Assembly (NCBI GenBank): GCA_017613855.1
Contig: JAGACY010000071.1
Coordinates: 1-6,177, forward strand
DNA length: 6,177 nucleotides
Direction of reading: 5' to 3'
From: Pseudomonadota bacterium
GTDB lineage: Bacteria; Myxococcota; Bradymonadia; UBA4248
Positions 2,527-6,177 of the stretch are shown here, in pieces; the first letter of the stretch is position 1, and each line of letters begins with the position of its first letter. The position numbers and the translations under genes are program-made. The notes under the pieces are model-generated. The model was not told the DNA's origin and made no database searches. It saw only the letters and a list, made by a program, of their open reading frames with translations.

Positions 2527-2700
2527 AATTCGCAATTCGCAATGCGCAATTGAATGATAATAACGATAGTTAGACTCTGAAGCTAAAGAAACGTTATTCT
2601 TCAGAAATTGCATTGCAGATGCTTGGATAATTGCGCTTTGCGAATTGCGCATTGAGAATGCCTGAATAATTGCGCATTGCGCATTGCCAATTGCGCATTG
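2527..2700. repeat. Heptamer-derived repeats, direct and inverted, before the lipoprotein gene
   Basis: Three heptamers (AATTCGC, AATTCGC, AATGCGC) occupy 2527-2547. The opposite orientation, made of TTGCGCA/TTGCGAA units, fills about 2630-2700. The two halves are complementary over long stretches: 2538-2551 pairs perfectly with 2668-2681 (14 bases), and 2540-2552 with 2688-2700 (13 bases). Between them lie AATAACG/CGTTATT and TCTGAAG/CTTCAGA in interlocking order (2559-2605). No gene is supported here; an open frame starting with TTG at 2677 reads repeat sequence. No clear promoter was found, although one is needed after the terminator at 2508-2526. Confidence 0.7.
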
Positions 2701-2708
2701 AAGTGGAC

Positions 2709-2714
2709 AAGGAG
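2709..2714 (+). promoter_or_regulatory. Shine-Dalgarno that fixes the lipoprotein start
   Basis: AAGGAG lies seven bases before the ATG at 2722. This start places a short, clean lipoprotein signal at the N-terminus. The upstream in-frame TTG at 2677 would add 15 residues encoded by repeat DNA. Confidence 0.85.
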
Positions 2715-2721
2715 TCGTCCC

Positions 2722-3879
2722 ATGAGATTACGGTATCTAGCGCTTTTCTGTATTTGCCTTTTTTGCGGATGTGCAGGTTCAAAACAGGATTCTGCTACAC
2801 CTTCGGATACCTCCGATGGCAATGAAATCAGAATAGACGATCATTCGCTTCAGAATTTGATGATCCCTGAAGATGCCGTAAAAACAGCTAGTGGATACCG
2901 TTATATTACGCTGACTCCAGGGAGGGGACAGAAACCAAGCCATACTGATGCGGTTCAAATCCATGTGCATGTCGTCGATGTCGAAGGCAAACCCGTCGAT
3001 GACCAGTCTGCAACCGTCTCGATGGCTCATTCGACGCCATTCCTCGAAGAAATACTCGCCGAAATGGAATTGGGGCAGCGTGTGCGCGTTTGGGGAGAAT
3101 CGCAGACGCATATTTGGGAAATCGAGATTCTGGGGATAGATGAGACCTTTAAAGCCCCAGAGGATGTTGGCAGAGTACCCGAAAATGCTCAAAAACTTGA
3201 AGGTATTGAAGGTATCGACGGCGTTTATTGGCGTGTCGTCGAACCCGGGCATGGCGAATCTCCTCACGATGGCCAGGCTTTGCGTTTTAAAGCATCACGC
3301 TGGAAATCCAACGGTGAAATACTCGAAAGTAATCAGACAACCAACGGACAGCTCGTATTTCTTAATAAAGATAATCCTCAGATCGATCCCATACACCACG
3401 AGATTTTGTACAAAATCCATGAGGGAGAACATATTCGCATCTGGATTCCCGGCAGCCTCATGCAGATGGAAGATGATCTCGTCGAAGATATGTGGATTAC
3501 CGAATACCTGACGCAGCTTGATACACCTCAGGAACTTGTTGTTCCTGCGGAAAATGTCGAGACCATCGAGCCGGATGCCGCATTCATGCGTGTTTTGTCG
3601 ACACAAAATGCGACCAAACTCGTCGATAAAGATGTCGTCCAGGTGAACATGACCTGTTGGAATGGTTTGACCGGAACCCTCGTCGATTCGTCTTTGCTGC
3701 GCGGTCAGAAAGACGTCATGGAGTTGACCGACGCCCTCGGAGTCTGGCTTAAAATCATGAAGAATGCCGCACCCGGCGATGAATTCATGGCTTGGATCAA
3801 GGCCAGCGCATTGCCCGAATCCGTCGGGATGGATTTGACATGCCGCGTGTCGGTTTTTGATAAAATCACCGGGATTTAA
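2722..3879 (+). CDS. Lipoprotein with three degenerate FKBP-like repeats
   Basis: This 385-residue protein begins with a short lipoprotein signal: MRLR, a hydrophobic core, then FCGC with C17 as the probable lipidated cysteine. A low-complexity linker follows (20-48). Three repeats then recur at about 49-143, 152-265 and 273-385. Each opens with a P(E/A)(E/D/N) turn, followed by an YRYITLTPGRG-like strand, a D-x-VQI/LRF strand and a G-x-(P/I/L)-(V/L)-(D/E) turn (GKPVDD, GEILES, GTLVDS). This is the layout of FKBP-type peptidyl-prolyl isomerases, where the turn normally reads as in GxxFDSS. The conserved Phe of FDSS is absent from all three repeats, and other active-site aromatics are not obvious. 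A binding or chaperone-like role in the envelope is therefore more likely than catalysis. The FKBP assignment is by pattern and is moderate. The gene converges with the EEP gene across 45 bases. Confidence 0.75.
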   Translation: MRLRYLALFCICLFCGCAGSKQDSATPSDTSDGNEIRIDDHSLQNLMIPEDAVKTASGYRYITLTPGRGQKPSHTDAVQIHVHVVDVEGKPVDDQSATVSMAHSTPFLEEILAEMELGQRVRVWGESQTHIWEIEILGIDETFKAPEDVGRVPENAQKLEGIEGIDGVYWRVVEPGHGESPHDGQALRFKASRWKSNGEILESNQTTNGQLVFLNKDNPQIDPIHHEILYKIHEGEHIRIWIPGSLMQMEDDLVEDMWITEYLTQLDTPQELVVPAENVETIEPDAAFMRVLSTQNATKLVDKDVVQVNMTCWNGLTGTLVDSSLLRGQKDVMELTDALGVWLKIMKNAAPGDEFMAWIKASALPESVGMDLTCRVSVFDKITGI

Positions 3880-3886
3880 TCAAATC

Positions 3887-3916
3887 GGTAGAGACGTGCC
3901 GCGACACGTCTCTACC
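3887..3916. repeat. GTAGAGACG palindrome, intergenic copy
   Basis: Twelve-base arms GGTAGAGACGTG (3887-3898) and CACGTCTCTACC (3905-3916) are perfectly complementary around CCGCGA. The element fills most of the gap between the convergent lipoprotein and EEP genes, and a smaller stem GATTT/AAATC (3873-3886) abuts it. It could stop transcription from either side, but neither strand has a following T-run. Two related copies lie inside the EEP gene. Confidence 0.85.
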
Positions 3917-3924
3917 AGGTATTA

Positions 3925-5778
3925 TCATTCCCCAATCGGTTTTCGAGCACCCAAGCGACGGTTATGCCGCGTGCGTGAAACATCAATTTTAACATCGTCC
4001 GGCGCATCATCCGACGTTTTATTTTCGCCTGCGACGTTGATTTCATGCAATGTTTCGTTGGTAGTGTTCACTTCCGAAATTTTGCGGACACGCCGTTCGC
4101 GGTGCAATCTGCGTTTGGGGGGATCGACGTTTTCGGGGGTATCGGCATTATCGGGAGTATCGGCATTATCCGGTAGAGACGTGTCGCGACACGTTTCTAC
4201 TGGCATATCCATTTTCACAGTCCTTTCTTCTTTAACCGATTCCGTAGAAACATGAGTGTTGTGGGGAATGGGGGCCGGTTCGTCATCTTCCGGATCATCC
4301 CAGAAAGAATTCTGCACCTTCTTCGGGGCTTCGATTGGGGAATGACTAATCGGAATTTCTGGTTTCTCAATGATATCTATCTCTCGTGCCACTTTCCTGG
4401 TGCGTTCGCGCCGTTTTTCGGCGGCAAATTCCTTTTGGGCCTTGCCGCTTAAAATTTCTTCGCGCGTTGGATTGCGGCGTACTGCACCATGTTCACCGCT
4501 TAAAATTTCTTCGCGCGTGGGCGTAGGCTTCATTCCTTTGCCGCTTAAAATTTCTTCGCGCGTCGGTACCGAACGCTTGGGGGCGGGTTTGGACAAAATT
4601 TCCTCGCGCGTCATGACACGTCTTTCGACTTTGTTGTGATTGCCGCTTAAAATCTCCTCCCGTGTTGGATTGCGGCGGTCACGGGGGCTGGCATCTTCGG
4701 TGGCGACGTGTCGCGACACGTCTTTATTGGAATTTGCATCCCCCTTCGGCATGAACTGTGCCGCCCGATCCAAATCCAATTCCAGCGAACACACGACGAC
4801 GCCGTGATCGCTCTTGGCCTTGTCGATGCGCTGATCGGTAAAGGTCTGGTCGATCAAATGGTCATTGAACACCGACACGAGTCCGACGCGCCCCGTATTG
4901 CGCGGATTTTCGGGCACCAGTTCCTGGCTCACCATGATGTGATCGAGGCTTTCGTACATGCCGTTGTGGATGTGCGTGTAATAAAAATCCTGATAACTGC
5001 GCCGCGCCTGGATATCCTTGACGTGGTACAGCAGCACATCCCAAATCTGCTTCTTGACCTGATCCGCCAAACGATGCTGCGGCACTTCACCCGTTAAAAT
5101 GCGCGACGTCACTGCATTTCCGACGTCATTGACATCGCCGCACACGATGACCGGCCTGTCCGGAATCCGCATGGCCTCGGCAATCAGCGCACGCGCCGCC
5201 ACCGCCTCAGCCGCCCGAATAATCAGCGATCGACTCTGTCCGCGCGCTAAATCCACTGGATTCTGCTCATCTTCGCCATCGTACAAAATCGCGCGCTTCG
5301 ACTTGAGGTGAATCACAAAACAAGTAATGATGCCATATTCCGGAATGCGAACGTCCGCTCGCAGCACAGGACGGCTAAACGTCGTAAACGGCATCACCAC
5401 GTAATCGCGCCCCTTCGGCGAAAAATCAATGACCGCATCCTTCGGAAAATCGGTAAAAACTTCGATATTCTCGACTGGAAACCGCGACAGCAGCGCCACC
5501 CTCGGCTGGTCTCCCACCTCATCGGCCATGTACAGCTTCGCCTTGCGATACAGCGGGTTATCCTTAAAAATATTCACAAGCGCATTGCGATGGAACAGCT
5601 CCTGAAACCCAATAATATCGGCGTCCATCTGCGTCAGCATAAAATCGGTCCACTCAGCCTTGCGAACGTAATCCTCCTGACTGCAAAACAGCGTCCCCCG
5701 ATACAGCGGCTTGTTCGGCAGCATCAGATTCATCAGATTAAACGTTCCCACCCTGATTGTTTTAATATTCTGGTACAT
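3925..5778 (-). CDS. EEP-family nuclease/phosphatase with a repetitive TREEILS tail
   Basis: This 617-residue protein has an N-terminal endonuclease/exonuclease/phosphatase domain (about 1-336) with the metal-dependent catalytic set in order. The set is N14 in FNLMN, E60 in FQELF, H157 in IHLKSK, D215 and N217 in GDVND, D279 in LDHIM, and D324-H325 in SDHGVV. The domain should hydrolyse a phosphodiester or phosphomonoester; DNA, RNA, phospholipid or small substrates cannot be distinguished. I see no signal peptide or membrane segment. Relatives are commonly little longer than this domain, so the tail of about 280 residues is unusual. It carries five TREEILS motifs (starting at 372, 390, 406, 421, 438), a basic stretch (448-466), an acidic Pro-rich part (490-507), DNADTP repeats and another basic patch (555-567), and looks disordered. 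A GTG at 5784 is also in frame, but the ATG at 5778 has AGAGAG (5784-5789) at suitable spacing. Confidence 0.88.
   Translation of the reverse strand: MYQNIKTIRVGTFNLMNLMLPNKPLYRGTLFCSQEDYVRKAEWTDFMLTQMDADIIGFQELFHRNALVNIFKDNPLYRKAKLYMADEVGDQPRVALLSRFPVENIEVFTDFPKDAVIDFSPKGRDYVVMPFTTFSRPVLRADVRIPEYGIITCFVIHLKSKRAILYDGEDEQNPVDLARGQSRSLIIRAAEAVAARALIAEAMRIPDRPVIVCGDVNDVGNAVTSRILTGEVPQHRLADQVKKQIWDVLLYHVKDIQARRSYQDFYYTHIHNGMYESLDHIMVSQELVPENPRNTGRVGLVSVFNDHLIDQTFTDQRIDKAKSDHGVVVCSLELDLDRAAQFMPKGDANSNKDVSRHVATEDASPRDRRNPTREEILSGNHNKVERRVMTREEILSKPAPKRSVPTREEILSGKGMKPTPTREEILSGEHGAVRRNPTREEILSGKAQKEFAAEKRRERTRKVAREIDIIEKPEIPISHSPIEAPKKVQNSFWDDPEDDEPAPIPHNTHVSTESVKEERTVKMDMPVETCRDTSLPDNADTPDNADTPENVDPPKRRLHRERRVRKISEVNTTNETLHEINVAGENKTSDDAPDDVKIDVSRTRHNRRLGARKPIGE
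4121..4174 (-). repeat. 18-base coding repeat (DNADTP)
   Basis: Three 18-base units lie end to end at 4121-4138, 4139-4156 and 4157-4174. The last two are nearly identical (GTATCGGCATTATC shared), and the first matches its neighbour at 13 of 18 positions. On the - strand they encode PDNADT, PDNADT and the diverged PENVDP. The array directly abuts the in-gene palindrome at 4173-4200. Confidence 0.8.
4173..4200. repeat. GTAGAGACG palindrome inside the EEP gene, copy A
   Basis: The arms GTAGAGACGTGTCG and CGACACGTTTCTAC are complementary except for one G-T position. On the coding (-) strand it is read as VETCRDTSL, in the frame acg-tgt-cgc-gac-acg. It sits in the disordered tail and keeps the reading frame open. 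Confidence 0.85.
4445..4668 (-). repeat. Five-fold TREEILS coding repeat
   Basis: On the + strand CCGCTTAAAATTTCTTCGCGCG and close variants begin near 4445, 4496, 4541, 4592 and 4643. On the coding strand each encodes TREEILS, usually preceded by N/V/T-P and followed by G. Start-to-start spacing in the protein is 15 to 18 residues, with unrelated basic or Pro/Gly-rich linkers. The motif residues are invariant in all five copies. The linkers differ, and some codons also differ (TCC for TTC, CTC for TTC), suggesting selection on the peptide rather than a very recent DNA duplication. Confidence 0.9.
4705..4722. repeat. GTAGAGACG palindrome inside the EEP gene, copy B (core only)
   Basis: The 18-base core GACGTGTCGCGACACGTC is a perfect palindrome and matches the centre of the other two copies. 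The outer GTAGA/TCTAC parts are not clearly present. It encodes DVSRHV (frame gac-gtg-tcg-cga-cac-gtc), a different frame from copy A. It lies at the junction between the catalytic domain and the TREEILS tail. Confidence 0.85.
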
Positions 5779-5812
5779 ACTCACTCTCTGGATTCTACGG
5801 CCGGGTTGGAAT

Positions 5813-6008: not shown

Positions 6009-6040
<32 letters not shown>

Positions 6041-6120: not shown

Positions 6121-6177
6121 ATTCCGCATTCCGCATTCCGCATTCCGCATTCCGCATTCCGCATTCCGCATTCCGCA
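6121..6177. repeat. Heptamer tandem repeat (ATTCCGC), cut by the window edge
   Basis: ATTCCGC is repeated eight times without a mismatch and runs off the right end. Its purity suggests recent slippage. An ATG at 6106 opens a frame into it, which would encode a cycling HSAFRIP peptide; this is not a credible gene. Confidence 0.95.

Follow-up and report, generated by a model that had tools for sequence, protein, structure and literature searches.

Rickettsia palindromic elements are palindromic DNA repeats that are translated as part of unrelated proteins. Intragenic copies, double insertions in one ORF and matches in replication or repair genes are already known for another class of short palindromes, the GTAG-tagged REPs, from passages of Di Nocera et al. 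(2013, PMC3733652), where some REPs are also noted to overlap transposase genes at their ends. Here we describe a palindrome found in a 6,177-nucleotide stretch of DNA, hereafter the window (the whole stretch analysed), which probably belongs to a GTAG-like REP family that is specific to one lineage and has a few tolerated in-frame insertions. Its translated gene copies are a new case of a known phenomenon. In a literature search of the text of openly accessible papers, no description of this palindrome sequence was found.

The 28-mer GTAGAGACGTGTCGCGACACGTCTCTAC matches the window at 3888-3915 and 4173-4200, with one mismatch each, and none of 200 dinucleotide shuffles reached as many matches. 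Its 18-base core matches at 3893, 4178 and 4705, with 1, 1 and 0 mismatches, for a chance expectation of 0.01. When 60 regions were scanned, matches at ≤3 mismatches had no equivalent in the reversed control; those with 4 mismatches were near chance level (10 versus 7). Taken together, shuffles, core expectation and reversed controls rule out a chance origin, and the three palindromes stand at the places given by the sequence-only reading that preceded this analysis. The first, REP-like and one base off a perfect palindrome (3887-3916, no strand assigned), sits in the 45 bp that separate two convergent ORFs. Its counterpart in the nearest relative, L001 (MAG 'Myxococcales bacterium UBA4248', genome G001), lies at 7947, just past the stop codon of an EEP gene. 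The two others are coding copies within the EEP-family gene (endonuclease/exonuclease/phosphatase) of the window, a 619-aa ORF on the minus strand (3925-5784) whose product matches PF03372 over residues 50-293 with 43.6 bits. The copy at 4173-4200 (minus strand) lies in the tail of the protein, and the copy at 4705-4722 (minus strand) has an exact core, is common to L001 and, with its degenerate ends, extends over ~4698-4731. The computed fold of the intergenic palindrome reached −22.4 kcal/mol on the plus strand and −23.7 on the minus strand (z −5.8 and −6.6), that of the coding copy at 4173-4200 −15.9 kcal/mol (z −3.9, 1 of 200 shuffles being equally good) and that of the copy at 4705-4722 −13.8 kcal/mol (z −3.4). 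Allowing RY at the centre of the core revealed a fourth, weaker match inside the EEP gene (4605-4622, minus strand, 3 mismatches), read RRVMTR in the third frame. It overlaps a TREEILSG repeat, is also present in L001, has an equivalent site in L088 at 2278, and is possibly a decayed copy. An Rfam search of the window returned no family at its gathering score, and the 28-mer with RY centre had no exact match in viral contigs, which leaves a viral origin without support.

The window holds other repeats. A second family, ACAAACGGATTTGCTCAGGCCT, occurs at 1433-1523 and 2482-2527, often with a spacing of about 52 bp. At ≤2 mismatches on both strands it counted 123 copies in G001, 19 in G004 and none in G002, G003, G005 and G006. 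Tandem units of 7 bp (AATAACG, AATTCGC, AATTGCG, AATTCGG, ATTCCGC) lie in the spaces between ORFs (1-20, 2527-2551, 2629-2700, 6009-6040 and 6121-6177), and these arrays recall the short tandem repeats of cyanobacteria. The ORF at 2677-3879 is lipoprotein-like with a weak FKBP similarity (PF00254, 20.6 bits, just missing the cut-off of 21.1).

The 28-mer is self-complementary, and both strands give the same three frames: VETCRDTSL, RDVSRHVS and one that opens with a TAG stop. That two frames are used thus calls for no special mechanism. The EEP ORF reads PVETCRDTSLP at 4173-4200 and KDVSRHVAT at 4705-4722; one copy thus yields VETCRDTSL and the other DVSRHV, in two different frames as had been proposed, and these are the only open frames of the intact element. 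An open third frame requires that the GTAG end be absent or degraded. The 15 copies found within genes in the survey described below were distributed 6, 4 and 5 over the codon phases. Four of the 15 had the phase of the frame with the stop: a 103-aa ORF held one, two fell within the first 15 codons and one was the possibly decayed EEP copy.

At ≤2 mismatches, the 18-bp core occurred 91, 35, 33, 149, 10 and 100 times in G001 to G006, respectively, the reversed control giving 0 in all six; these genomes, G001 and five relatives, all MAGs, stand in for that of the window. With RY at the centre, counts were 123 in G001 (control 0), 72 in G002 (control 1), 64 in G003 (control 0) and 137 in G006 (control 1). 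With 10-149 core copies per genome in G001 and its five relatives, the palindrome is anything but absent elsewhere, and the notion of a repeated DNA element whose copies in genes use different frames held. The full element, at ≤3 mismatches, was present in six genomes, all from one order: these six were among 9 searched from that order, and a sample of 282 genomes from the phylum gave no others. The family is specific to one order-level lineage of gut bacteria, which we take to be related to myxobacteria (record titles read Myxococcales in two cases and Proteobacteria bacterium in four), 'gut' resting on the record titles of L003-L006 (cattle colon, goat and deer omasum, buffalo rectum). The element is probably mobile.

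The EEP gene allowed a comparison with a near relative. In an alignment of 18 sequences, the last nearly invariant EEP residue was 341 and both coding copies lie beyond it, in agreement with the earlier statement that they fall outside the catalytic domain. They belong to a non-conserved, repeat-rich C-terminal tail that starts at about residue 343 (3925-4758, minus strand). Between them, tandem-like repeats (4442-4677, minus strand) code for TREEILSG units; the tail holds five TREEILS(G/K) units of similar DNA, in the same number in L001 with small changes. The AlphaFold model (mean pLDDT 49.9, poor in parts of the conserved domain too) weakly suggests that the tail is disordered. Among the best 120 of 171 EEP homologues past threshold, DVSRHV occurred in one, P0001, and neither TCRDT nor CRDTS in any; for this set, family-wide conservation of the peptide was rejected.

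The EEP protein is 81% identical to P0001 over its full length, and its gene also occurs in L001, the DNA there being 82.6% identical to the window over 3.4 kb. At the copy at 4705, L001 keeps the same position and DVSRHVAT, and a single silent substitution (CGA to AGA) costs it one base pair; this speaks mildly against conservation at the DNA level. At the copy at 4173, what is found in L001 is a run of three tandem units (EPCRDSA, EPCRDSA and EPCRDTAL). The last one has CCGTGTCGCGACACGG in place of the window's ACGTGTCGCGACACGT; the change is paired, leaves the inner palindrome intact and replaces two amino acids, and it speaks mildly for DNA-level conservation, the last unit being our choice of counterpart and MAFFT having paired the window copy with the first. 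The sequence-only reading had held that the DNA and not the peptide is conserved, and this finds mild support at 4173 and mild contradiction at 4705. L001 also has a further copy without window counterpart, read VETFRETSL, whose 4 core mismatches are by themselves near chance level and which keeps GTAG and CTAC outside the core. Tail copies thus come, go and multiply while the end of the tail stays alignable.

Two further genes carry clearly internal copies. In G001 PriA, an exact core is read KETCRDTS between the 3'-binding and helicase domains; the insert is absent from 6 of 6 orthologues (G002-G007), where linkers are unrelated and of varied length. In G001, a RAYT-like Y1 transposase gene harbours, within a linker, an exact copy of 28 bp that is read RDVSRHVST. 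A truncated homologue in G002 has the same linker insert with one base changed, and another G002 homologue, nearly full-length and 49% identical, has the core GTGCGATCGCAC at the same place of the alignment. The linker peptide is RDVSRHVST in G001 and one G002 gene, and RDVRSHVST in another G002 gene. The GTGCGATCGCAC sub-family counted 9 matches in G002 (including the transposase copy itself), 3 in G001, 2 in G005 and 0 in six others, with 0 in the control. Homologues L145 and L149 showed no clear palindrome at the linker place, and L141 stops short of it. No relative of the G001 transposase was found in G004, G005, G006 or G007, G004 having the most palindrome copies, and no copy at ≤3 mismatches was found in the fetched surroundings of the other G001 Y1 matches, on contigs C271, C35 and C245.

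Next to the G001 transposase gene, between it and a long ORF, 18 palindrome copies are arrayed mostly at 27-bp spacing (L069:2410-2934, contig C275). The array has stretches of several hundred bases that are open in three plus-strand frames. Besides the array upstream, the locus has an internal copy, with no downstream copy in 2.1 kb; L140 has one weak upstream match and an internal copy, with little downstream sequence. Neither locus shows a pair of inverted REP copies on the two sides of the RAYT-like gene. Transposase scores were 24.4 bits for PF01797 (cut-off 23) and 42.1 and 34.9 bits for NF047646 (cut-off 80), the 42.1 bits being those of the G001 gene. Incidentally, a 1300-aa MmeI-type restriction-modification ORF of G001 (L117:4654-8556, C245) holds an in-frame RAYT transposase domain between its TRD and C-terminal domains, with 86.6 bits to NF047646 (cut-off 80), surrounded by DAGVSPA/ARAGRPLP repeats. 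A similar RAYT unit follows an MmeI N-terminal domain in G005 (L098:163-1821, C16). Perhaps the REP inside the coding sequence of this transposase lineage is the enzyme's own and works as its recognition site, linker place and frame being kept while the core changes with the REP sub-family of the host, and the EEP and PriA copies would be in-frame offspring of such elements, which are compatible with coding; we hold this unlikely. The internal copy, with a core that differs between homologues, is a testable lead on REP-transposase co-evolution.

Two other explanations of the coding copies have to be weighed at this point. One is that they are kept for a function, as a peptide or as a hairpin in the mRNA by which EEP, PriA or the transposase is regulated. 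The retention of DVSRHVAT in L001, the fact that three transposase genes have RDVSRHVST or RDVRSHVST at one and the same place of the linker, and coding hairpins that fold better than shuffles are in its favor, and the conserved EEP copy at 4705 could reflect use of the peptide. However, the motifs occur in 1 of 120 EEP homologues (best 120 of 171) and the PriA insert in none of six orthologues, and we consider such a function improbable. The other is that the EEP tail arose when translation ran through a former stop codon into a cluster of intergenic REPs and the repeats then expanded, with no insertion into coding sequence. This would agree with a repeat-rich tail and with the further copy just past the stop codon in the window and in L001. 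Yet many of the next-closest EEP homologues, of 419-800 aa, also have tails, the final ~30 residues common to L001 lie beyond the copies, and read-through cannot produce the PriA copy; we consider this scenario improbable as well.

Where the copies sit relative to genes was surveyed in 120 regions (0.83 Mb, five genomes, ≤3 mismatches), 113 of them chosen for a copy among best-ranked matches and 7 for a transposase gene, genes being called on these MAG regions by a codon-usage script. Out of 211 copies, 196 lay between called genes and 15 within, in sequence that is 81-86% coding; leaving out the G001 tandem array, 15 of 193 were within genes. These intragenic counts are slightly low, as the truncated transposase copy (L245:74) was called intergenic. 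Five of the 15 were internal (three in EEP, one each in PriA and the transposase), nine lay within 60 codons of the called start, which may not be the true one, and one was in a short ORF. The palindrome hit 28 of 55 convergent gaps, 64 of 277 tandem gaps and 14 of 58 divergent gaps, and the difference between convergent and other gaps (28/55 versus 78/335) was significant (Fisher P 5.9e-5). By copies, 157 of the 196 intergenic ones had both neighbours called, the other 39 being near contig ends: 40 were in convergent, 97 in tandem and 20 in divergent gaps, for an expectation from gap bases of 13%, 65% and 22%. The excess is confined to convergent gaps and tandem gaps are not enriched. Within 60 nt, adjacencies to gene 3' ends numbered 62 versus 15 to 5' ends, a copy possibly counting on both sides. 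The palindrome is mainly an extragenic element that occasionally enters genes.

This bears on the comparison with Rickettsia made by the sequence-only reading. It stands as an analogy, in-frame copies being present in EEP, PriA and transposase coding sequences, albeit as a small minority of all copies, and it falls as a description of what the element mainly is. An element specialised for in-frame insertion, creating protein segments as proposed for Rickettsia, might be suggested by the two or three copies in one window gene, the larger number in its relative and the single copies in PriA and the transposase, in different frames, but with 196 of 211 surveyed copies between called genes and 5 of 15 in-gene copies clearly internal, in 3 genes, we find it very improbable.

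The ends of the element were variable. In the 206 copies counted (5 of the 211 surveyed being omitted), GTAG or GTAC was found at one end in 80, at both ends in 13 and at neither in 113. Other frequent ends were GCAG, GTGG, CCAG and GTAA, and preferences were seen for GTAC in G004, GCAG in G003, and CCAG and GTAA in the G001 tandem array. In the window copies at 3888 and 4173, GTAG is paired with CTAC, one pair being broken at 4173. The family is GTAG-like, yet it is not a clean GTAG family. Changes in core base pairs were 18 paired, 80 one-sided and 1 broken on both sides, a tally shaped by the 3-mismatch cut-off and no proof of selection.

The reading that we favor, a GTAG-like REP family with a few tolerated insertions, is sustained by the copy numbers, the extragenic excess, the convergent and 3'-end bias, the lineage restriction, the absence of the PriA insert in orthologues, the differences between EEP genes and a RAYT-like gene beside an array. 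Against it stand the 113 of 206 copies without a GTAG or GTAC end, the failure to find the palindrome-bearing transposase in G004-G007 although G004 is the richest in copies, and the third frame used by 4 of 15 in-gene copies. A RAYT-like HUH/Y1 transposase, acting on single-stranded hairpins, would move the copies. A copy that lands in a gene would survive only if its length and frame keep the ORF open and if it falls into a linker or a tail, and places of this kind are the tail of EEP and the linkers of PriA and the transposase. Toleration of insertions that have no special function is the best reading of the coding copies. By analogy with what is proposed for other REPs, the palindrome at 3887-3916 probably serves the two convergent transcripts as a 3'-end hairpin.

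These observations add one lineage of gut bacteria to those with REPs. They also provide further cases, with a near-relative comparison, of an extragenic palindrome turning into protein sequence, in which the element itself sets the open frames and surviving internal copies are in linkers and tails. The PriA case fits a remark in passages of PMC3733652 that intragenic REPs are often in replication or repair genes.

As to known systems, the element resembles Rickettsia palindromic elements, as passages of PMC3733652 describe them, in being a palindromic DNA repeat translated within unrelated proteins. It differs from them in its length, about 28-30 bp or 9-10 residues, and in being mainly extragenic. 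The GTAG-tagged REPs of Di Nocera et al. (2013, PMC3733652), as presented in passages of that paper, are, like the present element, short, mostly intergenic palindromes with a GTAG-like end, some of them intragenic, with two insertions per ORF and presence in replication and repair genes. The placement is alike, too: those passages give a preference for convergent and tandem over divergent gaps, and copies here are mostly in such gaps, with the excess in the convergent ones. The passages also describe GTAG, slightly degenerate forms being allowed, at one end and not base-paired; here, the tag is strict in 93 of 206 copies only and is paired with CTAC in the window copies, lineage and sequence are new, and the link to a transposase is incomplete. 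The passages do not mention this lineage, a near-relative comparison such as that of EEP, or an internal copy in the transposase gene. Compared with the RAYT/REP systems in passages of Nunvar et al. (2010, PMC2817692), the G001 gene differs in having an upstream array and an internal copy with none downstream in 2.1 kb, and in its 42.1 bits to NF047646, under the cut-off of 80. As in those systems, however, a Y1 transposase gene sits beside many REP copies, and related REP sub-families go with related transposases.
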